Shown: positions 2,604 to 49,044 of the stretch, in pieces
Layout: every line of letters begins with the position of its first letter
Position numbering within the stretch: position 1 is the first letter of the stretch
Assembly (NCBI GenBank): GCA_015039365.1
Contig: WION01000354.1
Location: forward strand, 1 to 54,553
Direction: 5' to 3'
DNA: 54,553 nucleotides
Origin: Amanita rubescens
Taxonomy: Eukaryota > Basidiomycota > Agaricomycetes > Agaricales > Amanitaceae
Notes under the pieces: generated by a model
Told to the model about the DNA's origin: nothing
Databases searched by the model: none
The model's input: only the letters and a program-made list of their open reading frames with translations
Translations under genes and position numbers: made by a program

Positions 2604-5600
2604 CCGAGCATTGCCCACAGCAAAGCCAAGATCGGTGGTTGCCAAGCCTCACGCTGCCGTCCCCAGGTAATTTGCGTTCCTGGTTGATGCATGACGCTTT
2701 CTAGGTGCCTGATGGGAGAGAGGATATTAGATTCAAAAATAGCATTAGTATAATGTAGACCACTTTCTTTGGGTTGATGTCCATCTCTCTGTATTTATAT
2801 GCGCTCTGGGGTTGAATACCGGATATGAATCCGTTCTGCTGGCAGGTGCCAGCTCCTTATGTCGTGAAGCTTGCAATGCCAATCCAAGAGGATTCCAGAG
2901 ACCCGGGAACGGTGCGAGTAACGAACCTAGAAAGAGGCAACCAAGTACATGTTGCTCAATCACAAGTTGAAAGAAAACGTTATTGCTGTTCTTCTCCATT
3001 CACACGTATTCCACGGCACATTTGGAGATTCCTATCATTTGCACTCCTAATTGTCAGCGCCACAATTCTACTTGTACGGTATCATTCACTTACCAATGCT
3101 AATGTTCGGGAGGTCGGAACGACGGAAATATCTGCTTCCCCGGGGCCGGCCGCGGGGCGCCGAGTGCCTACACACCAAATGAAATATATCATGTCCCATG
3201 GATGACTTTCCCTTGATTGTGTTTACGCCTTGGCCAGGTGTGAATCGTTCTGAAAGGTATCAACTTGACAGCCGACACTCAGAGCATAACGACGACTACC
3301 GCATCGGCGTCGTCGACGCCGTTAGCAGTGACATGTGACAGGCAGTGGTGTTAATCAGAGTGCCTTGCCTGTTTTGATCGATTGATAGTGATCTCCGTTG
3401 ATAAAACATATGGCTAGTTCTGCGAGTAATGTCATGGAAAGACTCATAGAGGTACCTGTTACAGCGCATTGGCGGCCACCGTGTGAGTCAGAAGTGAAAG
3501 TCGCAAGCAACAGAAGTGCATCTGTGAAGCTCAAGGCATTCGCTCAATCCCTATCGCGCTAAATGGAGGATTACCGTCTAAGCATGCTGTGCTTCGATTG
3601 ATAGGCAACATGCCGGATTAACGTGCTGGCTGCATTGAAGAGCCATTTGTGCCTGGCGCCCGCTCACAATCTGTCCAGCTACCTTTGTTCTGACACATAC
3701 ATTTATGTTCCTCCGTGATGCTTCGGCCAAGACACCCCTTCCGACACTCAATGCAATGTTTAAATCACAAGGACAACAGTAGCCAATGCATATGTCACCT
3801 CCGCAGAACCAAACCGCGATCTCGTTTTCTCTCCTTGGATTCACGCCCTACACATTCGCTAATAAGACTGGCAGTTTTCAAAGCACCAAACAGAATGTGC
3901 AACAGATTGTTCGATCTCCATAAAGAACACCAATGAAGTCTGATCGGGGGCACCAATGAGTATTTCTCAATTTATCCATACTCGATTTCCTAATGAGACC
4001 GTTTTTGGCCCGAGCTCGACGATGAATATGGAAATTCTGGTTACGGACTCGGAAAATGTCCAGCCCGGTAGTGAGTTCCGACCCGAAGGAGATGAAAAGA
4101 CGGGTGCTGGAGAAGTCAGACACGCGTCGAATCCGTGATTTTGGCGAACAATACTGCAATTGAAATACTCGATATCGTATGGTGCGTGCCATAGACGAAT
4201 CTACGCGTTGAATACAGAAGGGAACAGAGAAAAACCGAGGGTATCTAGTTTCAGCCCTGCACGGAATCAGATCAAGCTGAAATACCCGGTAACCCGTACT
4301 TACTGTGACAGTTCACTTTCTCCCACTGGATTCTCGGCTGACAATGCACACTCGTCGATAGAATGGTCACCCTAGCAAAACGCAGGAAAAAAATGGCGCT
4401 TCGATGGGCCGAAAGAGGCCTGCCATGCCAGGCGCTTGTGACTGGGACATCCCGTATCTTTATCACATGCCTCGCCATATCCAGTGGTGCACGGTGGGCG
4501 CGCAGGTTAGAGCACATTAAGTGATATTGCGAAGCGGTCAAAGCCGTGATTTGAGGCCGCGTTGTCCTGCTGGTACCTGCTACAGAGAACCCTGCATATC
4601 GGAGGTTGGAAGCTCAAAGCGTTGTTTGGGGTGAATCCAATGCATTGCGGATTGGATTAGCATGGATGAAAAGGCATGTCTCCGACGCCGGCGTAGGTGT
4701 GTGTTGAAGGTGAGAAGAAGAGGGCCATTTTAGCTTTTCCCGAGTCCGACGAGATTCCCCATTATGGGCCATATGCTGTGAGAGGTGGCAGATGCATCGC
4801 TGGAGGTGGTTTTGACCGTCCAACAACGACTTTCGATGCCATCAAAGTCGTACTTGGGCCTGTCTGAGCGGTGGCCTTCCCGCTATAACCAAGAAATGGA
4901 TGGTAGATGGGCGAAAGGCGCGAGTGGGGCATAGACGATGTTGGACGGTGAAAATTTGCTTGTAACTGCCGGGAGAAGAACCAGGTCAAACCTCTACTAC
5001 GCATACATGAAGGGATTGTAGTACCTTCAGAGCATAACATGCCACTATCCCCTCGCCCATGAACGTATTTCAAGTTCATGCACCTACGTTGACCAATGTC
5101 GCCTGCTTCCTTTTCCTAGGATGTTGTCGGAGCACATTGGGACAGCCGTTGCGGTTCGTTTGACTCCGATGAGACTTGCATGGGTGAGTCAACGCTTGCA
5201 GGTTGATTGCGTCATTCCAACAGATGAAATGGATTCAAAATGATAGACAGAGACGACGAGACGTCGAGGTGACGAGGTCTGTTGATTCGGTTGTCGTTGC
5301 CATAGAAACACACCTGATCGGTTACAGGCTGTGATGACTAAACGAAATTAAATTAACCAGCATAAATTCTTCGTCCCCGGCGAACCCCTTTTCAACAGAG
5401 ATTAGCAATTGACCCAAAAGATCTGGGGATATGGCATTGGAAGAGTCATCGACATGGTGGCATATTAATCTAAGGCTTCAGCAAAAAGTACTACACAACC
5501 CGCTCATCACTCATCATAGCATCTGAGACGCGCCCTTCGGATAATACATTTCTCCGCAGAAGCGCAGAAGGACCAGGTCAAGGTGCGTATCTGGCATGTG

Positions 5601-7400
5601 ATCTTGGGAGCTCGGTGACCCCTAAAGTCACACTTAGGCTTTACCTGGGCGCAGGTTTGTAGATTCTGGCGGCAGATTAAAGGGCGTGGGTAGAGGATGG
5701 ATGTAGATGATTCGTGCCTATGGAAGTACGAGGTAAGCCCACAAGAAAGGGTTTCAGTACCTTCGTACTATAACGCGCGCCTCGCCCATGAAACGCAACA
5801 ATTTCTTTGCCCCGGGTTGAGAGAACATATAATGGTATGCAAGTGTTGAAAAGCTGTCGCGATTCGCTCGACTTCGACGTAGAATTGAGTCTGTCGCCCG
5901 TCGTTCATTACTGGAGGTTGAGGAAGGGAAACAAGATGATTTCTTCATGGATGGAGCTGAGGTCAAGATTCCGGCGTAATTTGAAACATGTTTGTGGGTA
6001 GAACAGTCTTGCGAAAGCCCTTCGCTTGTGGACTTCCAACATGTTGCCCAGCGACGATTCTGTCCTTTCTCGGGTCAACATATCTTCGCGCACTTGACAC
6101 GTCGTCAATCCAGCACTCATACTGAGTAAGGATGGGTTATGGAGACAAATCAGGACGCTTCGCCGTTTCCGTCCCTGGTCTCAGTGTCATAAACGCGGCA
6201 GTTCTGATAAGGAGATGTGCAGCATAGTTGGATCCGAGGGTAATAGGCGCGTCGACATCCGGCAACGTCCGACGCTAGGAAGTAAGAACGTTTGGGTTGA
6301 GAGTTGAGTTTGGTGGAGTGAATGCGTGAAAGTTCGTTTAAACCGCGCAACGGCGGATTCATGAGTGGTATCAGTTCCTGCCTCTACGAAACAGGATCAG
6401 GTTTAGATGCGTAGAGAACGTGAGACGCACCGTGGTCAGCCGTGGCCCGGCGGTAATTTCACCAACCTCCAGTCAGACAGCTTGGCCGCGACAACCTTAT
6501 CTCCGTCATGAGCGTTGTCTTCTCCAGCACGCAATACACGCGCTCTCCTACTTATTGACGAACCTCCCCGCCGTTTAGCAGTAGCTTTGTTCTCTACCTG
6601 TGCGATTCGTTGTAGCGATGGATAGGAAGAACGAGGTCAGTCCGCTAGGATTACAGCACAATCGGCGCGGACGTACCTTGGCTGGAATCCGGCCCTTCTT
6701 GGGATCTACGTCTGTCCTGCGATAACAAGAAGGGTATTGGGAAAGCCGGCGTACTGGGGCTTCAAGTTGACATTGCATTACTCGAGGGATACTGGGATGA
6801 TGTCAGAAAGGATGGAATTGCAGGCCTGCTAAACTAGCCTCATCTGTTTCATACGTTTGTTGGCCGAATTACAAGATTGGTTAGACTGCGATGAATTGAC
6901 GTAGACGCGGATAGAAGACGGTGGTTGGACATTGTGGACAAATTGTAGCCTGTAGAAGCGGGTCAGCGAAGACAGGGCTGCAGGCGTCTTCGTAAGCGAC
7001 CGTCCGTGGTGTTGAGTCACTGGCCTGAGACTCCTTAGTTTCCAGGCAAGAAGACAAGGTAAGACGGGGTACGTTCCCGAATGGAGTTGATATCTAAATT
7101 TGGACTTGGCTTGAGAGTAACCCTGTTCCGGGTCACACGGTGCAGCCTCGTGAACTTATAGTCGCGCGCTCTTGACCCTTTGACCAGGCCTACCGTTCGA
7201 TCACACGCTCGCATCCCTCTGTGCGCTCTCAAGTGTCACCTGGCAAACATATCTCTTTGTCAGAGTAAGTCAACCACATTATGTAACTCCGAATCATTGT
7301 TGCCTCTCTTAATCCAGAAACACATCATCCATTGCCTCCATCAAGTCCAGAAGTACACTTTTGAATCTTAATTTACATACCTAGTTTTCCCCCATCTTCT
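2604..7400. other. Gene-poor stretch, no recognisable intact gene
   Basis: I recognise no intact gene. An open frame at 2825-3205 (+) has a basic segment followed by one hydrophobic helix (FLSFALLIVSATILLV) and could be a type II membrane-anchor exon, but I cannot extend it with convincing exons. Other open frames are short, overlap on opposite strands and show no motif. The stretch contains arm A of the inverted repeat at about 5400-6780. Confidence 0.5.
5400..6780 (-). repeat. Dispersed repeat, copy A (left arm of inverted repeat)
   Basis: Read on the minus strand, this matches copies at about 13000-14040 and 21060-21720. Shared words include GCGTGCTGGAGAAGAC, GACCACGGTGCGTCTCAC (with copy C), ATCTAAACCTGATCCTGTTT (with copy B), GGAAACGGCGAAGCGTC and, in A and B only, GGAGAAATGTATYATCCGAA. 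The similarity is collinear but broken by small indels, which suggests an old element. A and B are in opposite orientation on either side of the AT-rich GTPase island. No transposase or reverse transcriptase was recognised, so the family is unknown. Boundaries are approximate. Confidence 0.7.
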
Positions 7401-7468: not shown

Positions 7469-10400
7469 ATGGCTGCCGCAACTGGTGTACCTCTTTTGAG
7501 TATGCTAATTTATGTGTATTGCTAGTCCTTGACTGACAAATATCATATCAAATCCAGATGAGACACGTGTTCAAATGCTCAGGGAATATTATCTTTGCCC
7601 ACACTTTCGCATCCTTGTTATTGGGAGGGCAAATGCAGGCAAAACAACCATCCTTGAGAAGGTCTGTGGTGTAGCAAAGGCAACAGAGCCCATCATATAT
7701 GACAAGGATGGTGAGTTGGTCTGAGTTTTGTGCTTCCTTACTAACTGTTGAGTTTCTTGCAGGTAATCAGCTTGAACAGTCTGAGAATCATTTGATGCCA
7801 TCACTTGAGGTCAGCTAATGATATGGATGTGCCCATTCACATGCAATGACACATAACAGAGAGGCCAGCATGATATTGAGCATCAAATTACATACCCTGG
7901 AAGTAACTTTATCTTCCATGACTCTCAGGGTTTTGAATCTGGATCAACTGAGGAACTGGAGATTGCTTGGAAGTTCATTGAAAAGAGGTGTGCAGAAACT
8001 GAGCTGAAGAATCAGCTGCATGCAATCTGGTATCTTGCTTCATCCCTTTCAATACAGTACTGTCTGATTTGGCTTTCTGTAGGTACTGTATACCCATGGA
8101 CAGCCCTCGCCCAATTCTGCCTGCAGAACTTGAATTCTTCAATAAAGGGACAGGCAGAGGTAAGCCCTAATGAACACATGCCACATCTTGTTGGTTTGGA
8201 GAGATTGTTTACACTTGACTATTGTTACCTCCTTTCCATTGGCCAAGGTGCTGCAAAATCTAACAGTACTGACTAGTAAATATTTCCTTTACAGTTCCTT
8301 TATTGGTAATATTCACTAAGTTTGATGGTCAAATAGACAGTGAATATGTCAACTTGATTGATAGAAAGGATGAAGATAAGTGGGGGAGGGCCAGGGAAAT
8401 TGCTGAAGTCACTTTTCAGAAAGTTTATCTTCCTAAAGTTTTGAATGCCAAATATCCTCCCAGGGCATATGTGCTATTAGAAGGTGGGCACAATGTAGAT
8501 TTCTTTCTGAACATGGGAATAATATTTTTTGATAGACATGGATTTACCAGAGAAGAATTGTCCTGAATTAACCCTGAAAACTGCTGATGCAATAGATGAT
8601 GACTGCATACATCAGCTATTTGTTTCAACACAGATGAATAATCTTGACCTTTGTGTTAGATCTGCACTTCAGTGAGGACAAATGCACAATGTCCCTTATT
8701 AGCATTAATATTGTTCAGACATGTTCTGAAACATGAACCTTTGGCATGGGGTGATGTTGTTCTCATAGTTTTTTCAAAATTTCCACATTTCTGGGTATGT
8801 ACATACATATTTTTGTCAAACTGCACATCAGCTTAGGAAACATTAATGGCAATAGGTGTCCAGGGAGGTAGGTGGCCTTCATATGACAATAGATACTTGC
8901 AAAAGATTTAACAGGAGGTAAGTGACACTCCAATGCCTTGACATGAAAACAGGAGTAGTAATATTTCAGATGACTAATAAACAATTGAGTGAAGCACAGG
9001 TTAGTTGTCACATGATATTCTTGGTGACAGGATCTGATGAAATTGATATCAGTGGGTAAGTGATATTAAACTAGCATAGATCTGATATAGTAATGTCTCA
9101 TGACAACAGTTTGTGAGCAATGCTTTCTTTGTGATCAGCAGTCTTGTCCCATAATCTACAGGAAGTGAGTGCCATCACTCAATTTGATTTTCCATGATGC
9201 ATTACAATTTACATGACCAATAGAAAGTGAGTCAATCTATCATTGTAAGCAGACTTGTCACTCCAGTCTCTCATGGACAGGGAGTGGGTGATAAAACACA
9301 GCCTCACACCACATCTGACCTGCTTAAAGAAAGTAAGCAACTTTGAGGTTGAAGTGTATCAGACACAACTCCATGGACAATAGAAAGTTGGTGACATATG
9401 GTAGTCTAAAGTCTCAAAAGACCTCATTGGATTAATAACAGGAAGTAAGCAACATTTCCTTTCTGTTTGCTTATAAACATTACATCTTGTCCAAAAATAA
9501 CAGACAGTAATATTTCTCATTTTCAAAGCCTCTTCACACAATTCAAAACAAATAGGATGTATGTATGTGATACTTTTTTGAGATGTGGGCTCATTATATA
9601 AAATACTATGGTAAAAGAGAGTCAGTGATAATGTTTTTTTCCTCCCAACTCAATGTGCTAATTCCATTCTGAAAGGAAGTGAGTGATGCTGGCCACTCTT
9701 CTGCAAGACAATTTGGACACAAGAAAATACTACAGATTGTGAGTAATATTGCAATTTTTGGAAATAACAGTCTCATCACATCTGTTCAAATAAATGTAGA
9801 AGGTTAGCAGCATGTCAACTGCTTTAGTGGTTCAAAAGATTGTAACCCATGGCTTATAGTATGTGAGTAACATTGCAAATATTTCTGAAAAGCTGCTCTA
9901 TGTATGTATTTTTTTGACAGGATGTAAGCACCATTAGAGAATTTTGTTGGAAGGCAGTGTCATCACACCTTTTCCTATGATCAACAGGGAGTGAGTCAGA
10001 TTGAATATTTGGTGAAAGGCAGTCTTACTAATTACATCTTTCATATGATGAACAGCAAGTGAGGGACATTGCAAATTTGTGAAAGACAGTCTATTCTGAT
10101 CACCATATCTTTTCTATTTGACAAACAGCAAGCAAGTGACATTGCAGATTTTGTGATAGGCAGTCTCATCATATGTTTTCCTATCACCAACAGGGAGTGA
10201 GTGACATTGCAAATTTGTGGAAGGCAGTATTGTCAGATCATTTCCTATCACCAACAGGGAGTGAGCAACATTGCACATTTTGTGAAAGGCAATCTTATCA
10301 CATCTTTTCCTATCACCAACAGCTTGTGAGTGACATGTCAGATTTTGTGGAAGGCAGTCTCATCACATCTTTTCCCATCACCAATAGGGAGTGAGTGACA

Positions 10401-12367
10401 TTGCACATTTAAATTTTTGTAAAGGGTAGTCTCATCATATCTTTTCCTTTGAGCAACAGCTTGTGAGTGATGTTGCACATTTTGTCATCATATGTATCCT
10501 TTCCAATCACCAACAGGAAGTGAGTAACATTACACCTTTTGAGGAAGGCATTCTCATCATATCCTCTCCTATTGCCAACAGGGAGTGAGTGACAAGTTGC
10601 ACATTTTATGAAAGGCAGTCTCATCACATTTTTTCTTCTCACCAACAGCGAGTGAGTGACATTGCAGCTTTTGTGAAAGGCAGCCTCATCACATCTTTTC
10701 CTATCACCAACAGTTTGTCAGTGACATTGCACATTTGGTGAAAGATAGTCTCACCATATCTTTTCCTATCACCAACAGGGAGTGAGTGTCATTGGACACT
10801 TTGTGAAAGGCAGTCTCATCACATCTTTTCCTATTGCCAACAGTCTGTGAGTGATATTGCAGATTTTGTGACAGGCAGCCACATCACATCTTTTGGCACC
10901 ACCAACAGTTTGTCAGTGACATTGCACATTAAGATGGTCTCATCACATCTTTCCTGATCACCAACAGGGAGTGAGTGACATTACACAAAGAAAGTCCACA
11001 TGATACATCTTTTCCAATCAAGGGAGTGAGTGGGGTTGCACATTCTGTGAAAGGCAATCTCATTACATTTTATATCACAATCAGTTTGTGAGTGACATTG
11101 CAGATTTTGTGGAAGGCAGTCTCATTGCATCTTTTCCAATCAGCAAGTGAGGAATTACATATTTTGTGAAAGCCAGTCTCATCATATCTTTTCCTAGTTT
11201 GTGAGTGATATTGCACATTTTGTGAAAGACAACCCCTTCATATCCTTATCTATCACCAACAGGAAGTGAGTGACATTGCACATTTCAACATTAACACATC
11301 TTAACCCAGTACCAACAGCAAGTGAGCAATTGCACATTTTGTGAAAGGCAGCCTATCACATCTTTCCCTATAACAAACAGCTTGTGAGTGACATTGCAAA
11401 TTTTGTAAAATCTCATCACATCTTCTCCTATGGACAACAGGAAGTGAGTGAGACTGCATGTTTTGTGGCAATCTCATCACATCTTTTCTTATGACCAACA
11501 GGAAGTGAGTGACATTGATTTTGTAATGAGCAATCTCATACATGACCAATAGGGAGTGAGTGACATTGCACATTTTGTGAAACAGTCTCATCACATCTTC
11601 CCTTTGACCAACAGCTTGTGAGTGACATCACAAATTTTCTGACCTGCATTCTCAGCATACCTCAATTTATGAATGTCTGATGAATCATTACATCTCAGAA
11701 AGTGAGCATGTTGTCCTATCTTTTCCAATTGTCTTCCCTTTACATTATTATCATCATAGATTGTAAGATTTCATTTCAACTACACACTTCAACATTCCTC
11801 TCACTTATATCACTTTCCTTGATTTTCAGGTGAGTGAAGCAGGTTCATGAGGTATTGATTTTAATACCAATCTTCATGCTAGTCTGTAGGTCTTATGACA
11901 TGCATATTGGATGATTTACTCTATCTCATATGTAACCAGTATGAACTTTTCTCCCTGTTTGGAGACAAGCACAAGCACTTTTCCATCAAGGTATTTTTAT
12001 TCTTTTTTTCACATATGGTACACAACTGATGCAATTGCAAAAAGCCTACTGATTGCCAGCTCTTAGTTTGTAAAGTATTCCTTTTCATTTACTGTATTTA
12101 TGCTTAAACTTTGAAGCAATTATTATCATTGCCAAGCTATCCTTTTGGATCAATAAAACATTTTTGCCATCAGTCACTGATGCCTTGGATCAATACAAGC
12201 AAAAAGGCTATGTTCAGAAGCTGAAGAGGGAGATTACCCCTGAATTTATGTGCTCTGACCATCAAAATTTGGTCACATTACTCTATAGCCAGGTGACTCG
12301 CATTGATGGTAGGCATGTACATACTTTGCAGTCATGGACTACTTATGGACAATTTATGGCAGGGTGA
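7469..12367 (+). CDS. P-loop GTPase gene with 47 predicted single-codon exons
   Basis: The 5' part is a normal G-domain protein: exons 7469-7484, 7558-7710, 7763-7809, 7860-8029, 8083-8159, 8295-8483, 8536-8671 and 8719-8794 give 288 codons in frame. G1 is GRANAGKTT, G3 HDSQGF, G4 FTKFD. The TGA at 8673-8675 is avoided because the donor GTGAGG begins at 8672; the next exon reads QHVLKHEPLAWGDVV then FSKFPHFW. Next come a 12-nt exon (8856-8867, VSRE), a 30-nt exon (8970-8999, MTNKQLSEAQ) and 47 three-base exons. First bases: GGA 9281, 9988, 10194, 10258, 10388, 10582, 10779, 10968, 11023, 11553; GAA 9162, 9442, 9676, 10517, 11263, 11441, 11502; GAG 8915; TTT 9110, 10714, 10909, 11085, 11198; CTT 10323, 10460, 11381, 11615; CAA 10056, 10129, 11144, 11319; AAA 9224, 9330, 9384, 11699; AAG 9800; GAT 9556, 9921; ATT 9736, 11760; TCT 10844, 11883; AGA 9618; CGA 10649; ACA 9504; TAT 9860; TGG 9053. 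Exons 11940-11990 (YELFSLFGDKHKHFSIK), 12060-12069 and 12174-12367 close the frame. Total 1302 nt, 433 aa. The G domain is firm; the array as coding exons is inference. The 10-nt exon is the weakest join. Confidence 0.7.
8868..11939 (+). repeat. Tandem array of intron-like units separated by exactly three bases
   Basis: About 48 consecutive units each begin with a donor (mostly GTGAGT, also GTAAGC, GTCAGT, GTTGGT, GTATGT) and end in YAG or AAG, mostly ACAG, with three bases before the next donor. In the middle and 3' part (about 9924-11640) units are near copies about 55-70 nt long: start GTGAGTGACATTGCA, middle TTTGTGAAAGGCAGTCTCAT, end CCTATCACCAACAG. From 8868 to about 9900 the interiors no longer resemble one another, but splice signals and the 3-nt spacing persist. 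Spacers are listed under the GTPase gene. One unit break at 11828/11829 has no spacer at all. Confidence 0.85.
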
Positions 12368-15300
12368 AACTTACAGCATGATATTCAAGTGATTAACTGG
12401 CTGCATTGCCTTTGCATTGAGCTCATATTTTGTACATAGATCAGTTGCCTTCCTTTGGTTATTCATGCATCTGTCTCAAAGTTTCTTTTGTCAGACATAT
12501 ACATACATATATGATTGTTGGAAATATATTCAGGGACAGGTTGGTAGCTACACAAATGAAATATGAACCATGATTGGAAATTGCAGGAGTCCTCTCCTTA
12601 GATGTTAAAGGTATCATATACCACATACATACCAACCCTGCAATAGCTAAGAAATTGGTGTTGACAACAACCATGAAAGGGTATGTGTTTAAAACTGAAT
12701 TTGTGCCTCGACAAAGGCAATGAGTGACAGTCACATGTCTGGACGTGATGTGACTCGGGATCAAAAGATCCACAACGTGGTGAGTCTGATGTGACTTGAC
12801 CTGCTGGTACATGAAGCGGTGCGTGTAGGGCAGCGGGCGACTCGGAGTCTAGATAAAGTGCGTCAAGCTCGCCAAGTGACCGTGCGATAGTAGGCGACAG
12901 TCCGACAATTGTACGTATTTGGATAACTTATTCTCCATCTGGCAACGCGCGTACCCTGTCTTCAGGCCATTCTAGCTCTTTCTCGAAACGTCTAGTATGG
13001 ACCCTCAGGCCAGCGACGGTCATCAATGTCACCTTGAATCCCCAGATTCAGGGAAATCACGACGACGTCGGCTTTCCCAACCAGGATAAGAAACAAAGCA
13101 AGCGCGTAAGCCCGAGTGATCGTGGTTCGTAAGAAGGAACGAATGGCCAAGGTACTGCTAAATGGCCCCGAGGTTCGCCAATACGTGGCCTGTTTTGGAG
13201 AGCGCGTGGATTGCGTGCTGGAGAAGACGACGGTCATAGGATATCCGAGTGAGAATCCGCTCCCAAGCTGTCGTGCCGTTGACCCACTGCTGACTACGGT
13301 GTAACTCACCTTCCCTATTTAACGCAGCTAATCTAAACCTGATCCTGTTTTGTAGAGACAGGAACTGGTACCACCCACGAATTCATTCCTGCGCATTTTA
13401 AAGGAAGTTTCACACGTCATTCACTCCAACTTCCTCATCTCTTAGCCAGGGTCTGACTTTTGCCAGGTGTTGACGTGCCTATCACTACCCTCGGATCAAC
13501 CGCTGCGTATTATGACTCCAGAAACGGCGAAGCGTCCTTCATGACAGGCATGACAGGCAACATATTGAGAGCTCATGAGCGACGGACTTTCACAAGGCTG
13601 TTCCGCACAGACATGCTTCGGTATTATCTCCACGGGACATTTCATCGACCCGCAGTACTGAATGACAGCGTAAGGCTCAATTCAACCTCAAAGTCAAGAA
13701 AACCGCACAAGTTTTGTTTTGCAACGCTTACATGTCCTTTTAATGTTTTAGGCAAAGATGCCGAGTCGCGGTGGATACGAGGTGGGTGAGGCACGTGTTA
13801 TGGTAGCACGAAGGTGCTGCAATCCCTTCCTGTTCCCCATCGCCTGATATCCGCCTCCTCTATCTACGTCCTCTAATCTACTGCCAGAATCTACAGACCT
13901 GCGACTAGGCAGACCTGCCGCCTCTCAGTCCTGACCCGGTTCTTCTGTGGAGAAATGTATCATCCGAAGAGCACGTATCGCCCGGTGTGTTGCTACTTTT
14001 TTTGCTAAAGTCTTTGATCAATAACCTGTCTGGACGGTGCGAATCAGGTCAAGTTTGAAGATATGGTTTCGATGAGGATTGACAAAAGTGAATGGGGTTA
14101 GTGCCGATGAATCGGCGATTACGTCGGCCAAGTATGTTATTCGGTTCAAGCGCGGGTCGCTGACCGACTCTGTTTTTTCTTTCTCCTCCCTTAACATGCC
14201 TTTCCCATGTTTCGTGCATGGGGATGTATCGCTGTCATTAGCGTAGCAAGGAAGTGTAAATAATTCGTTCGAGTTGCAATAGGAATCATTGACTTTTATT
14301 CGATATGGGCAGGAAGTGGCTAATGCAGATATCCAAAAGAGACGAACTGCAAGTTTTAAAAAGACTGCATCACGCCGAAGACAGCGCCATCCTAAATGAT
14401 AATCGATAAAGGTTCAACCAGGCTCAGGATAACGAGCCTTCATCCAAATCCGGGGCAGGGTATCCTGCCCTTGAAACGCCGCATGTCTAATCACAAGTTG
14501 CGTCAGAGTCGGAGATTGGATAAGGGTCATTGACTGGGTCTTTCGTGAACGCAATGTTACTAAAGCCATTGAATATGTGTGGCACAAATTTGACAAAGTG
14601 TTTTCCGGTGCTTCCTCGTAAATTTGCCAACGGGCCCGTATTACAAAGCGTAAATAACTTGTCGCAATATAGCATATGGCGTATTACGCAGAATTTGTTG
14701 GAGGACAGTGCCGTCAGATCAAGCTGTTTCTATTCTCCCGCTTTCCTTGGCGATGGTGTATTGGCCATTCTCTCACGACACCCGGCGCAAGGAATGATTA
14801 CAACCGCGTAAAATAATCCAGGGAATGGGCGAGGCGATACTAAGAGAAGCGAGCTTGACGATGGACTGATTAGGTGGCATCTACGCAGAGTGAAGTGGAA
14901 TGGAGTACGGTGCATTGCCGAGGGACGTGTGCAACTCTGACCGAGACACAAAAGAGAGATTTCGTCCTGGAAGTGGCCGCCCATATCCGAGGGGATAGTA
15001 GTAGTCGTCTAAAGATAGCTGTACGGCTTATGTAATTGCGCCATTCGTTAGTGCCGTTGTCCTGTCTCACTACGTATTCAAATATTCAAAGACGGTGTTG
15101 GTCTGTGACGACATGATCAACACTGGAAAAGTGATCGAACACAGTATAGTAGTACACAGCTCGGGGACTATATGGAGGCTGTGCATTATTATTCGGTTTA
15201 AATCAGCCAGGAACCCGGATGTTGGAGAGTGCCTGACACGAGCATTGAGTGAACAGTAAAGAAGAACGGATAGTGAAGAGCTAGAAAGGACTAGAGTGAC

Positions 15301-18890: not shown

Positions 18891-21811
18891 ACTCAAACGA
18901 ACGAAAAACAAAAAGAAGTGTTTTTTTTATATATATATCCAACTACTCGCTTCCTATACCGTGTCCCTCGATTTGTTTTTTTTTTTTTGAATTTTTTTTT
19001 TGGGGTTGAAGGAATGATTTCTTTGATCTATACCTAGGTTGCGGTTGTATTTCTGTCTTCTTTTTTTTCTTCTTCTGGTTTTTAGTAGCGGCGTCGGGTG
19101 TTGGTGCGAGTTTTTCGGTTTCGGTGGTGCGTGGTTTTGATTATAATTGATGGAGAGAGAGAGGAGCTGACGGGGTTGTATTATCATATTTAGACAAACG
19201 AAATACGAACACGACTTACACGAGCACTTGGGCGTCCGATCCATTCATTCCTTTTCGCGTCGTACAACAAACAACATCTATAGAAGGTTTCTATTCAACA
19301 ACCAAGAATGCGCCAAGTACATACATGCCGAGTCTCCTTTCTTTTCTTCTTACAATCTAATTTTCTTCAAATGTTCTACTGCATCTACTACACTACCCGT
19401 ACAAAAACTGTCAAAAACAGCGCTAACTAGCGGATTGTGAGATTCTCTATACGTATACTCGGTATTTTTTTAATGTATATATTGTGTATGAAAGAAACAA
19501 AGTTGCACTCTCTATCTCTAGTGTACGTTAACGGAGGTTTATTATTATTACCAGTTACGAGTGGAGATAAGGTGTGAGCGTGCCTCAGGAACCAACGGCC
19601 AGGAGGTCGCGCGACTCGGAACTTTATATCAAGTGTGTGCCAACCGTGCTAAATATGGAATCCTTGTACTTTATGGATGACACATGTCGCAGGTACGGCA
19701 ATTCGGATATGAGCTAATGCGTCAGTTTTGATGATGTTAGAAAGGAAGGGTTCTTTCCTAGCGTGGTCTTCGTGAAGGAGGATAGAAGCCGCTGTGCCAC
19801 AAGATAAGCTTAAGATGTGGGTGCCGTTCCGGGCCGCGGACGTTACGCGTTACGCTTGTTTGTTCGGTTTCCTTTCTCGGCTTCAACAAGCGCGTATGAA
19901 CTAACTAAACGACCCCTATTGTCATATCGCTAGGAGATGGTTCAATTATACACGATTGACGTGCCAAGGCGAAAAGTTAATCCATCTTTTTCACGGAATT
20001 CCAAAGTTCTAGACCACAGCACGCACACGAGTTGTCACAACTGCCTCACGACTTCAAGTCTGCTTGACCATTTTTAATTTGCGAATCCCGAATGAATTGA
20101 ACGGATGGACCTTGTGCCTATCTGTGCCTTGCGCAGCGCTCTAAAGGTGCAGGGAAAATGTTATGTCAAACCAAATCTGATGGTGTGCGAGAAAGGTAAG
20201 AACGTCGATATAGAAATTTTGTTTACTAACGATTCCTTCTTTTTGCAGGGAATGTAAATGACGTGGAGTTTCACTGTACGGCTGATGAATCAAATGACTC
20301 GATGAGACGTTTCGCCTTGGGGATAACTTTTCGGTCTTACAGAGGAGTTGTCGTCTCGTCAACACTTCACCCCAGCGTTGAAGACAGTTGAAAAAAAATA
20401 TCCTGTGACTAACTTATCGATACGATTCAGGGCTATTCTGGAGTCACCAAAAATCACGTCGCGCCTCAGCTCTGGCGTATACCAACTTGGCTGCTCATTA
20501 GTCACCTATTTTCTATTTAATATATATGCAACCTTCTTCAAAGGACGCTGTACCAGAGCATGCGAGCTTCCCGATTGTCGCCTGGCCGCTAGCCCTCGTC
20601 TCTTTGGATCCCACGGCTTGGGAAACTTGAGGGCGACGTGGAATGCGCACCGTGGCAGAAAATGTCTTGGTTATCATCTAATTAACGACATTGGACCGGT
20701 GCGTTAACAAGAACGGGATGGTTTATAAAAAACCGCACGTACTCGAAGTTCCTTACAGTCAAGGATTTTCGAAAAACTGACTTATAATTTCTAGCCTCAT
20801 CGAAAGCGTTAGTAGGCCGTCGTTCCTGGCCGTCGTTCACTGCCAGAGAAAGTACAGGATCAGTTCGTGCCCAACAATGCGCCGGGTCTTCGCCCCCCAA
20901 ATCAAGTTGCTGCCCTTTGTTTCTTCGAGCGCTCGCTTTATCTCGCAGTTGGCCTGACCAGCCACAAGTCTACTCCACTGGCGGAGGTTATTCCTAGAGG
21001 ATAGTAAGAATGACAAGTGGAGCATGATTCTCCCTCAAGTCATTACCACTGTCACCCGCCGCATGATTGAAAAGACTTGATCGTGGATCGTAAGAAGGGA
21101 CAGACAACGGCCTTGAAGGTACGTGTGATGCGCGCTGATTGTGCTGTAATCCTAGCGGACTGACCTCGCTCTTCCTATCCATCGCTACGAATCCCACAGG
21201 TAGAGAACAAAGTTACTGTTAAACGGCTCCGATGACTGCCAATACGTAGCCCGTTTTGGAGAGCGAGTGCATTGCGTGCTGGAGAAGACGACGCTCATGA
21301 TAGAGATAAGGGTATCCGAGTGAGAGACCACTGGCAGTCTGACTGCCAGAGGCCGGTGAAATTGCCGCTGAGCCCATGCTGACCACGGTGCGTCTCACAT
21401 TCCCTGCATACGCGGCTAATCTAAACCTTGTCCTGTTTTGTAGAGTCAGGAACTGATAACCGATACAGCTCACGAATCCACTCTTGCGCATTTTAAACGA
21501 ACTTTCACAATTTCTGCCGTTTCAGTCCAAACTCAACTCACATTCTTACTTCCTCTCCTGTTAGTCAGGGTCGAACATTGCCAGGTGTCGACGTACCTAT
21601 CACTATCCTCGGATCCAACTTGTGCTGTACATCTTATCAGAACCGTCGCGCTTTATGACTCTGAGACCAGGGACAGAAACGGCGAAGCGTCCTGGTTTGT
21701 CTCTATAGCAACACAGCCTCCCTCCAAATATACATGGTATACTACATCGAGCGACGAGTAAACATAATCCGATGGATGATATACTAAGCAAGATGTGAAC
21801 TCCAAGTTATC
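18891..21811. other. Gene-poor stretch with T-rich 3' region and repeat copy C
   Basis: 18900-19100 is T-rich and A/T-microsatellite-like, probably the 3' UTR and downstream of the OPT gene. From 19100 to 21050 I find only short, overlapping open frames with no motif. Copy C of the dispersed repeat lies at about 21060-21720. No gene is supported. Confidence 0.5.
21060..21720 (+). repeat. Dispersed repeat, copy C (partial)
   Basis: It matches the first part of copies A and B: GTGCTGTAATCCTAGCGGAC and CTTCCTATCCATCGCTAC are shared with copy A, GCGTGCTGGAGAAGAC with both, and GACAGAAACGGCGAAGCGTC ends the match. The distal part seen in A and B (GGAGAAATGTATYATCCGAA) is absent, so this copy is truncated shortly before DPH5. 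Confidence 0.65.
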
Positions 21812-42973: not shown

Positions 42974-43837
42974 TACCGAAACTTGTCATCATCTAATATT
43001 TTCCCACGCACAGACCACTCTGCCCTTTACTATGCGCTGTATGCGTCCTGGGTGTATGCGCTGCAGCCAATGTCCGTGACCGATGCAACGTATTCATGGG
43101 TGTATGCACTGCAACTAATGTATGCGCCGTGACCGATGCAACGTATTCCTAGCTGTACTTGCGCTGTTTCCAATGACGTCACTAGGGACTACTGCATGCC
43201 AGTGTGCCTAATTGACGTGACTCCAATTCAATCTCAGGCCTACCTTTATTTATCCGTCACCATCACTTGCTTGGTATGCCAAGCCATCTCTACAGCACCT
43301 CTATCCGTACTTGTCCATGACATTCGTGAGTCTCCTTGTTGAGTTGCAGAGTTGTCTAATAATACAAGAAGGCTCCCGAAATGGAACGCTGGTCGGTGCC
43401 GGACAGTGCGGTCTGATTACCATTTTGAAGTCTAGAAGATCGCCTCTCCACAGCGCCTTCATGGCACTTGTCCGTGAGTATCTTTGTTGAGCTGTGGGAT
43501 CGTTTGATAACAACGAGGGCCATCGAAACGGAAGTTTGTGCGGCGTATCGTGCCATCCGATATGCAGCGGCACGTCTTCACGATATTCGTGCGCCTCCTT
43601 ATTGTATAATACAGCAAGTAGAAGATGGCTGCCGAAATAAAAGGTGCCGCTTGATCACTCCTTTCATATCGCATCTAAACTGTCACGATACCTTTACGAC
43701 CGCGCAAGCACGGCAGTCCATTCAACCCGAGATCCGTTGCAGCCATTACTCCATCTTGGTAAGAAAAGGTGCACTCGCCGGGTATAAAATCCAGCGTGCA
43801 AAAGCCAGTAGAGACAGTTGACTTCTCAGCTTCAAAC
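42974..43837. other. Intergenic stretch between divergent genes
   Basis: This is the shared upstream region of the large minus-strand gene and the thaumatin-like gene. Two short direct repeats occur near 43030-43140 (words GTGTATGCRCTGCA and GACCGATGCAACGTATTC, two copies each). No gene recognised. Confidence 0.5.
43783..43790 (+). promoter_or_regulatory. TATA box of the thaumatin-like gene
   Basis: TATAAAAT ends 48 nt before the ATG at 43838, a good distance for a strongly expressed secreted-protein gene. Confidence 0.55.
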
Positions 43838-47574: not shown

Positions 47575-47708
47575 GAACGATAAGAGCAAGGGTGGGCGAT
47601 TGCTGTGAAGGTCAAAGGAAAAAGACGATAAAAAACGTTTTTGATATCAACCCACTATTTGTAATTTCCCGGCAGTTTCACCCCAACGGTTTTGTTAGTG
47701 CCATTTCC

Positions 47709-47772
47709 CGATTTGGAAGGGCCAATCATAATCCTGTCCCCGATTTGGAAGGGCCAATCATAATCCTGTCCC
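47709..47772 (-). repeat. Perfect 32-bp tandem duplication carrying CCAAT boxes upstream of INO1
   Basis: Two identical 32-bp units at 47709-47740 and 47741-47772, each containing GGGCCAATCATAATCC. Each holds a CCAAT core, the site of the fungal HAP/NF-Y complex. They lie about 340-400 nt upstream of the INO1 start and about 140-200 nt upstream of the TATA box. Confidence 0.85.
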
Positions 47773-49044
47773 CAATTCAACACGGCTTCCTCTTCCCGGC
47801 AGAGCCTCTAACTTGCAACTCTATGATAAAATGTTGCATTTGTTTTTGGAACGTTCAGCGACCGCTTCCGAGGGGCAGATAAGAAAGTAAAAAAAAAGAT
47901 ACACGTTGCTGATTTCTCGTAAATTGTACGTGCAGCGGAACCCCACAAATGATCCCATTTGTCTCGGTTTCGGCATTTCCTATCGCAACACATCGCAACG
48001 CAATTGAACCGAGGACCGTGCCATGCGTGCTGTGGCCAATAGCTTTAATCTCGCAGCCTCTCGATGCAAGGACTTGCCAAATGGATTGAAATGGCGCGCA
48101 TCTGATATGTGGTATCTTGGCGCTGAACGCTCGCCCGATATTAATCCAGGTTCGCATGTCCTTTCTTCGGCTTGACAACCGCTTTCTTAGAACTTGCGAT
48201 ATCTTTGGTCCAATTGAAAGAGACAGATGCTCTGATAAAGATCACGCAATTGCTGACTGAACAGATATCTGTCTCACGCCGCCAACTCTAATCATGTCAC
48301 AAGCAGTCTAGGTGCTTAAACGAGGACAATACACTCGGTGACGTGCACTATTCATGCAGAGCAACTTTTTTGGCGTAACTGTGTTGAAACAGACCAAATT
48401 GTAGATGTACGGGTGCAAAGAACCTGTGAAACTACGGAATTTTGATGTCGGTTAAAAAAGGGTGAATTGTGAACTGTCGTCAACCCCCTCGTTTTGAACT
48501 ATCTGGCGGTTTCTTAGCCAGTCAGGTAATTTGGATATCTAGACCTTTTCGTGCATCAGACTTCCCTGACGCTGGAACGTTGATGGACAAGGCAATTTAC
48601 CAATCAAGCTCGTGTCACTGGCGCTCATGAACTGAGATGTTGACAGCCTGTCATATGGCCCTGGACTATTCGAATCAACCATACGGCCAAAAGTGAAGGG
48701 GCCGATATCATTGGATCCTTCAAGCTTCATTACTCGGTCCCAATCGGTCCGAACATTTAGAATTGGCCCGGGACGAGCGAGGACTAAGTTGCTGATCCTC
48801 CTGACAGCTGTGGTAGTTTGAACTGACATGCTATTCACAACGTGTTGTCGGCCTGAAGATAAGACATCCCTGCATTGGGCATAAAGTGAAATTCAGTTAC
48901 ACAAACGAATTCCATTGCCGCGAGAGTGCAAATTCTGAGTGTTTGTGCCAGTTTACATGTCGTCGAAGGAAAAAATAATGCCAAATAATGAAAAACTTTT
49001 CGTGCGTGACAGTCTAGCACCGACGGACGAGCGGCTGCCATCAG
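47773..49044. other. Intergenic stretch between INO1 and TIM50
   Basis: Nothing convincing is seen. Open frames at 48539-48838 (-) and 48835-49092 (-) lack motifs, and the latter overlaps the TIM50 start. Confidence 0.5.

Follow-up and report, generated by a model that had tools for sequence, protein, structure and literature searches.

Can a single codon be an exon, and can tens of such exons be joined in series within one gene? The question is raised by a GTPase gene of Amanita rubescens located in a stretch of 54,553 nucleotides (contig WION01000354.1 of assembly GCA_015039365.1, forward strand, hereafter the window), in which a ladder of closely spaced splice-site motifs lies between the exons encoding the G domain and those encoding the C-terminal part. 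It is likely, with a probability that we put at roughly 0.85, that the 47 three-base segments within 8868-11939 are translated single-codon exons of this GTPase, one codon being joined per splicing event. This reading of the triplets, already proposed in a first-pass annotation of the window, is supported by a length rule of multiples of three, by stop avoidance, by conservation of the splice sites, by the peptide encoded at the edge of the ladder, and by two database proteins.

Anatomy of the ladder

In the stretch 8868-11940, AG-NNN-GTRAG was found at 38 sites, compared with seven over the rest of the window (51,480 bases; 0.42 when scaled to the same length). Forty GTRAG donors are present in this stretch, 38 of them with an AG exactly 3 nt upstream, and at AG-to-GTRAG spacings from 0 to 30, no spacing other than 3 had more than four sites. 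Once variant donors were allowed, including GTTGGT, GTCAGT, GTAATA, and one GC, 47 three-base segments with an acceptor and a donor were obtained between 8915 and 11885. A dynamic-programming chain, which scored splice sites while triplet content remained unseen, returned the identical 47 triplets as the hand-made model, with no stop among them. The AG/3 nt/GT ladder described in the first-pass annotation is thus real, but the exact motif does not recur 47 times as was stated there, since [CT]AG-NNN-GTRAGT occurs at 25 sites and the shorter form at the 38 given above. Likewise, the count of 47 exons was recovered but not their uninterrupted succession, the run being of 46, with the GAG at 8915-8917 sitting between a 12-nt and a 30-nt exon.

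When the upstream exons, the 47 triplets, and the exons 11940-11990 and 12137-12309 are joined, a single open frame of 428 codons plus 2 nt is obtained (1,286 nt as far as 12309). The in-phase join across the array, claimed earlier, was therefore found again, whereas the length of 1302 nt given with it was not reproduced; the estimate that about a tenth of the protein comes from the ladder was right (47 of 428 codons up to 12309). All 47 units are symmetric, so that the frame is kept by any subset of them. The introns of the window ladder are 46-81 nt long, except for one of 120 nt, and the AG/GT junction found within the latter (Table 1) aligns in two other copies (L013 and L033), the shorter intron of other copies being without it. 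GCAAGT, and not a GT donor, opens the intron 10132-10193, which follows the triplet 10129-10131; GC donors are present in the ladder of contig C650 (L036) too.

Length rule and stop avoidance

The genome assembly (75.7 Mb, 786 contigs) was searched with the strict motif at spacings of 2, 3, 4, and 6. Spacing 3 was found 1,624 times, compared with 13 for spacing 2, 6 for spacing 4, and 32 for spacing 6, which also keeps the frame, and the reversed-pattern controls gave 0. Thirteen of the 19 frame-breaking units (spacing 2 or 4) are on contig C749 and four on C13. The C749 locus (L023) is probably a dying copy: by the strict motif, ten of its units are 2 nt and three are 4 nt long, and an exon downstream of the ladder has a 1-nt insertion. 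As the frame-breaking units concentrate on a contig with a broken-looking gene, the length rule appears to decay where the gene is broken. In the non-repetitive parts of the ladders, the lengths of 117 introns gave 32, 38, and 47 for the three remainders modulo 3, and retention of these introns would shift the frame or add a stop in 101 of the 117.

Genome-wide, TAA and TGA triplets were found once in total, compared with 808 CAA, CGA, GAA, or GGA triplets. Because a T followed by RA forms, in our reading, a stray donor with the preceding G, a T-first control was used: TCA and TTA were counted 4 times and the other NYA triplets 68 times, and the stop deficit goes beyond this control (odds ratio 48, Fisher p 0.0002). 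Neither CAG nor TAG was found among 1,024 sites (a set excluding the near-duplicates L009 and L010), and the third base of the triplets is mostly A or T. The absence of CAG and TAG suggests avoidance of a second acceptor, and the scarcity of TAG is thus uninformative on stops. The same 1,024-site set contains six stops, of which five come from a single shared site lying upstream of the arrays. In the blind chains, 11 of 963 main triplets are stops, seven at 2-nt units and one at a 4-nt unit (L012, L023), and one due to a register slip at a duplicated GTGA (L014); the remaining two are in L025, one being a true TGA triplet and the other lacking a CAG or TAG acceptor.

Conservation among copies

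Fifteen copies, including that of the window, were aligned over the first 1.1 kb of the ladder. Varying columns amounted to 0 of 38 for the acceptor AG and 2 of 36 for the first two donor bases, compared with 405 of 854 in the intron body (p 8e-17), and length varied in 17 of the 19 introns of this alignment, often by non-multiples of three. Seven of 17 triplets were identical in all 15 copies, and the others showed replacements but no stop, the consensus peptide of the edge triplets being WFExGKKETDREIKY. MAFFT split the GAT triplet at 9556 and inserted a duplicated GTGA in the L014 triplet at 9676; when ungapped, both are whole codons. Six of the seven G-domain exons were without an in-frame stop in the 15 copies, L026 having a 1-nt deletion.

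Introns of dissimilar ladders most commonly have GTGAGTGACA as their first bases, ATGAC near −11, and AACAG as their last bases. These shared ends lie beyond the six donor and three acceptor bases scored by the chain, which suggests one intron class of common origin. Two branch-point candidates were counted in the 117 introns: CTNAY was present in 68, at scattered positions, compared with 39.2 in shuffles, and ATGAC in 26, mostly at −11, compared with 3.0.

The ladder in the GTPase family

With 1.5 kb of array sequence as the query, a DNA search returned at least 121 matches. We read 20 loci of up to 10 kb chosen by similarity to the array, two chosen by the motif (L032 and L033), and five chosen only by their GTPase protein (on contigs C650, C106, C101, C439, and C773; C106 is close to C650 and perhaps its allele). 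C283, C307, and C14 represent one locus, identical or 99% identical beyond the gene, and two of the 20 loci are the window's own, present on other contigs. The same GTPase gene was found upstream of the array in 20 of 20 loci, and the downstream exons in 19, L016 lying at a contig end. In these 20 loci, the motif was found at 917 sites with spacing 3 and at no more than 32 with any other spacing from 0 to 14.

The spacing-3 excess was also seen in all five protein-chosen loci. The four ladders chained among them contain 25-31 triplets each, and the 109 blindly chosen triplets include no stop. The middles of their introns are scarcely more similar to one another than shuffled sequences are (0.29-0.33 vs 0.25-0.28), in contrast to those of L014 (0.79 vs 0.34). 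The intron middles of the window's 5′ edge (9053-9990) are hardly above shuffled sequences in likeness as well. Across loci, a chain contains 25 to 89 triplets. From the loci read, the ladder is a family-wide trait of a large GTPase family.

The size of this family is apparent from 1,060 first-look candidates, of which 102 were scored, and from 236 exon-by-exon matches for the database protein P0070. In L032 (contig C8, 3900-7000), the ladder unit is 56 bp instead of 65 bp, with 48 units of that length.

Hypervariable triplets between near-identical introns

Fifteen arrays, each having 12 or more units of modal length, were analyzed for variability, only those units being counted; two arrays had too few, and six (L009, L010, L015, L016, L019, and L028) were left out as near-duplicates. 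The mean intron difference within the 15 arrays was 0.4-21%, and in each of them, triplet diversity per site exceeded intron diversity, by 3-85 fold. The triplet columns were within the six most variable of 56-65 columns in all 15 arrays and exactly the top three in eight; codon position 2 was the most variable column in 13. The extreme is L014, in which one identical intron is found in 41 units with nine different triplets. Arrays of several loci align mutually at many offsets with at least 95% identity among the matches listed, for which a 95% filter was used.

In six of ten near-copy pairs, triplets differed 23-45 times more per base than introns, although units aligned within the more distant pairs may not truly correspond to each other. 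Between L017 and L019, 4 of the 153 triplet bases differ, as do 4 of 3,544 other bases; all the triplet differences are in two adjacent units (ATC GGA vs CGA CGA), which looks like a swap of units. L014 and L015 are separated by one 65-bp gap and one 7-nt gap. We read this pattern as concerted evolution of the introns together with probable selection for residue variety, as suggested by the diversity figures. Block duplication was considered as a source of the codon order and rejected, repeats of four codons being above shuffles at p < 0.05 in only 2 of 13 arrays (L012 and L022).

Database proteins and public gene models

The product is a P-loop GTPase, as judged by a weak Pfam match and by the modeled fold of its homolog P0001. 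The Pfam match to MMR_HSR1 (E 0.0013) is below the curated cutoff, and a weak Arf match was also obtained. P0002, a public A. rubescens protein, is 94% identical over 63% of the query. Two JGI proteins contain the edge peptide of the ladder: P0001 (386 aa, on a JGI contig of 1,446 bp) and P0005 (311 aa, on a contig of 1,903 bp). P0001 has the layout ...NEQLSETKWFEKGKKESDREIEYDG, 40 residues, and IVRFHFRGSPNPTSC, the part past the G domain reading WVDRAVTNEQLSETKWFEKGKKESDREIEYDG, 40 residues, and IVRFHFRGSPNPTSC; P0005 has the layout ...MANKQLSEAQWFEHGKKDTDKQIVYDGERLLQ..., with an edge shared with P0001 and a different variable tail. The 17-codon edge of the window is matched at 15 residues in P0001 and at 12 in P0005.

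When the second-last codon (ATT or AAT) is read into the last ladder intron, [IN]VRF[HY]F is obtained in 15 of 23 loci (IVRFHF in ten, NVRFHF in four, and NVRFYF in one), followed in most by an SSPTPTSC-like sequence. Because the end of P0001 matches this read-through, P0001 looks as if it came from an incompletely spliced transcript in which 58 single codons had been joined but the last intron retained. Contigs as short as those of P0001 and P0005, if they were DNA, could scarcely accommodate all the introns of a gene of this kind, although a processed copy is possible.

In the AlphaFold model of P0001, the G domain is well predicted, much of the conserved edge is a low-confidence helix, and the hypervariable part is unstructured. 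Against the PDB, this model matched G-protein alpha, septin, and EngB chains with TM-scores of 0.21-0.56, which are only general G-domain relatives. For the homolog P0025, the model shows the corresponding region as a linker of low confidence that precedes a helical C-terminal part. Seven public models stop before the ladder or jump it (P0002, P0003, P0004, P0006, P0018, P0032, and P0070).

Weighing the alternatives

Several observations weigh against single-codon exons. The evidence consists of genomic DNA and database proteins, and the records of P0001 and P0005 state neither RNA origin nor species for their contigs. P0002, the public model of the window allele, ends before the ladder, and the P0070 model joins the short exon MMKQL to FALFTLFGG across the ladder of its own locus (a placement that is our own reading). 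A protein search limited to the region found no further spliced example, and an alignment search returned five proteins, none with a spliced ladder. Splicing also shapes the triplet vocabulary, which weakens the stop counts and possibly explains the low variation at position 3, the base adjoining the donor; the genome counts include duplicate haplotype contigs and related arrays, and because of this shared ancestry, they are not independent events. C13 holds some 2-nt units, and four of the ten near-copy pairs show no triplet difference, with 0, 0, 1, and 7 intron differences. L026 (contig C298) has frame-shifting indels in two ordinary exons before the ladder, the second being a 1-nt insertion with a stop in the exon matching 8719-8794, seen there in one copy of 15; L026 is perhaps another dying copy.

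Chance or a simple repeat was ruled out by the motif density and by the spacing-3 excess in the stretch and in the genome, and a decaying minisatellite by the ladder being kept at edges with dissimilar introns and in diverged loci. It is very unlikely that the ladder is a single intron of about 3 kb containing a tandem repeat of intron pieces, skipped as a whole in the mRNA. The P0070 model of a related locus has just such a join, one duplicated intron could yield a repeat bearing splice signals, and one-codon exons could be skipped at no frame cost, but a single intron would predict neither the 3n length rule nor stop avoidance, and it would account neither for triplets that give a conserved peptide while the introns around them change nor for P0001 and P0005. 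We regard as scarcely credible that the protein ends before the ladder, at the SALQ stop as in P0002, with everything downstream untranslated. P0002 is a public model, and C14 carries the window's allele; however, the downstream exons are open in most of 16 copies (length changes of +3 in two, −6 in two, and +1 in one), with only one stop in the last exon among the 16, and three homologs from JGI contigs (P0023, P0025, and P0026) extend into this C-terminal region as well.

Random inclusion or skipping of the single-codon exons, giving many isoforms per gene as in schistosome micro-exon genes (MEGs), is unlikely but deserves consideration, as all 47 units are symmetric and the 2-nt units of C13 would need to be skipped. 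Rarely included exons should nevertheless tolerate more than one stop and 19 units of 2 or 4 beside 1,624, and P0001, whichever genomic copy it comes from, retains both edges, its 58 residues running from W to I. As for the origin of the ladder, an introner-like element could have invaded an older coding stretch, inserting behind each of its codons, the codons differing as parts of an old protein and the introns matching as recent copies. This is compatible with single-codon exons, yet rather improbable. Identical introns carrying up to nine triplets (41 units in L014), end motifs shared beyond the scored sites, and a similar stretch in other taxa, recognized by eye (WFESADDAAGKEREYYDDG in P0025), speak for such an invasion. 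On the other hand, insertion exactly every 3 nt is not a known habit of introners, gaps of 65, 130, and 195 bp, along with other sizes, separate the arrays, the central codons are not conserved between copies, and the intron middles of diverged ladders are hardly above shuffled ones.

Proposed mechanism

If the segments are single-codon exons, each short ladder intron would be recognized as a unit by intron definition, and the introns would be removed in turn, stepwise, as an exon of 3 nt is hardly long enough for its two sides to be defined simultaneously; the one-codon exons would be included constitutively. Since three-base units keep the frame at any number, units can be gained, lost, and swapped. 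The conserved peptide would represent the old edge of the ladder, and recombination between introns that are nearly identical likely drives the evolution of the middle, where varied residues would be favored by selection. In the resulting GTPase, the G domain and a helical C-terminal part would be linked by a hypervariable, flexible segment about 20-70 residues long. A role in recognition may be guessed from the pattern, as with the repeat domains of fungal allorecognition genes. We propose, tentatively and at somewhat under even odds, that the introns serve as uniform recombination handles and the codons as exchangeable letters, so that dozens of GTPases could vary in length and sequence, one residue at a time and with the frame always kept, this repertoire being a splicing-built system for the recognition of self or parasites.

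Comparison with known systems

The exons of schistosome MEGs are several codons long. The Amanita ladder differs from these genes in that each predicted exon is a single codon, the host gene encodes a GTPase, and it is the introns, not the exons, that are homogenized; moreover, most of the coding sequence of a MEG is in small symmetrical exons, whereas the ladder accounts for 47 of 428 codons. The likeness lies in runs of very small symmetrical exons and fast-evolving families (PMC4350168). Microexons of 3 nt are known from Drosophila TnT and mouse Ncam, and these, like the ladder units, are one-codon, frame-neutral exons between normal introns; the named cases are single, whereas the Amanita ladders chain 25 to 89 of them into a whole protein segment (PMC8042270). 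Being within the 30 nt allowed for a microexon, the 3-nt segments have conserved AG and GT edges that are predicted to act as its flanking splice sites. The aphid bicycle and megacycle genes also evolve fast and have very many microexons (>100 in megacycle), but not of one codon each (PMC9168663).

The Podospora hnwd allorecognition genes het-d, het-e, and het-r resemble the ladder genes as a multigene family with concerted repeats, variable repeat number, and a few codons per repeat that vary in excess (PMC1805685, PMC2873952). They encode STAND proteins with WD40 repeats in the coding sequence, whereas about 95% of the Amanita repeat is intron and the variable codon is its sole coding part. 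Concerted repeats and a few codon positions with excess variation were found here, the latter as diversity per column; STAND/NACHT and WD40 domains were not, Pfam giving only the weak MMR_HSR1 and Arf matches. In recursive splicing, a long region is removed stepwise, as is predicted in Amanita, but ratchet points juxtapose acceptor and donor, whereas three bases lie between them here and would be kept (PMC8605326). Accordingly, spacing 0 was found only 2 times in the window stretch and 6 times in the 20 loci, compared with 38 and 917 for spacing 3. The ladder introns are not stwintrons either, as every listed window intron has its own complete donor and acceptor. Like introners, they are near-identical introns in many copies and at many sites, but introners insert in many genes, whereas the Amanita copies are seen as head-to-tail ladders with 3-nt spacing in the one gene family read (PMC4457414, PMC9860276). 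Our searches of the open-access literature found no report of serial one-codon exons and no precedent for this layout.

Features of the locus and its surroundings

Table 1 Features of the GTPase gene, its ladder, and the flanking repeat arms in the window.
Feature	Position	Strand	Remarks
Left arm, imperfect inverted repeat around the GTPase gene	5525-6587		
P-loop GTPase domain, GRANAGKTT motif	7469-8671 (seven exons)	+	
Seven conventional exons	7469-7499, 7558-7710, 7763-7809, 7860-8029, 8083-8159, 8295-8483, 8536-8671	+	From frame and junctions
Exon ending ...FPHFW	8719-8794	+	
12-nt exon, VSRE	8856-8867	+	
Predicted one-codon exon GAG (E)	8915-8917	+	GTG in 8 of 15 copies
30-nt exon, MTNKQLSEAQ	8970-8999	+	MANKQLSEAQ in P0005
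Conserved 5′ ladder edge, 17 predicted one-codon exons encoding WFEKGKKETDREIKYDG	9053-9990	+	
Hypervariable middle, 26 predicted one-codon exons, tandem units of ~65 bp (QQGGLGLEGRFGSFGGFQFEQLEEGL)	10056-11617	+	
3′ edge, predicted one-codon exons AAA (11699), ATT (11760), TCT (11883)	11699-11885	+	
AG/GT junction, possible zero-length recursive site	11829-11830	+	Within the 120-nt intron 11763-11882, which it could split
Exon YELFSLFGDKHKHFSIK	11940-11990	+	Same phase as the ladder; same length in 14 of 16 copies, 3 nt longer in 2
Exon LSFWINK..., C-terminal part	12137-12309	+	Among 16 copies, two 6 nt shorter, L023 1 nt longer
Right arm, imperfect inverted repeat around the GTPase gene	13149-13979		

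The two arms flanking the gene are 66-93% alike in pieces, and a 77% copy of part of the left arm at 21131-21707 indicates that they belong to a dispersed repeat. Short tandem repeats are present outside the ladder at 43049-43148 (period 53) and 47707-47777 (period 32).

Implications

If the single-codon reading is true, there would be no useful lower bound on exon size, even in series, and a spliceosome working by intron definition would be able to thread 46 or more one-codon exons in order. Public gene models would then be wrong at the ladder loci. How both edges of a 3-nt exon are recognized, and which selective forces favor hypervariable segments in the large GTPase families of fungi, would become questions open to test. 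For this family, the ladder would represent a new route to protein diversity, in which introns form the repeat and codons supply the variation.

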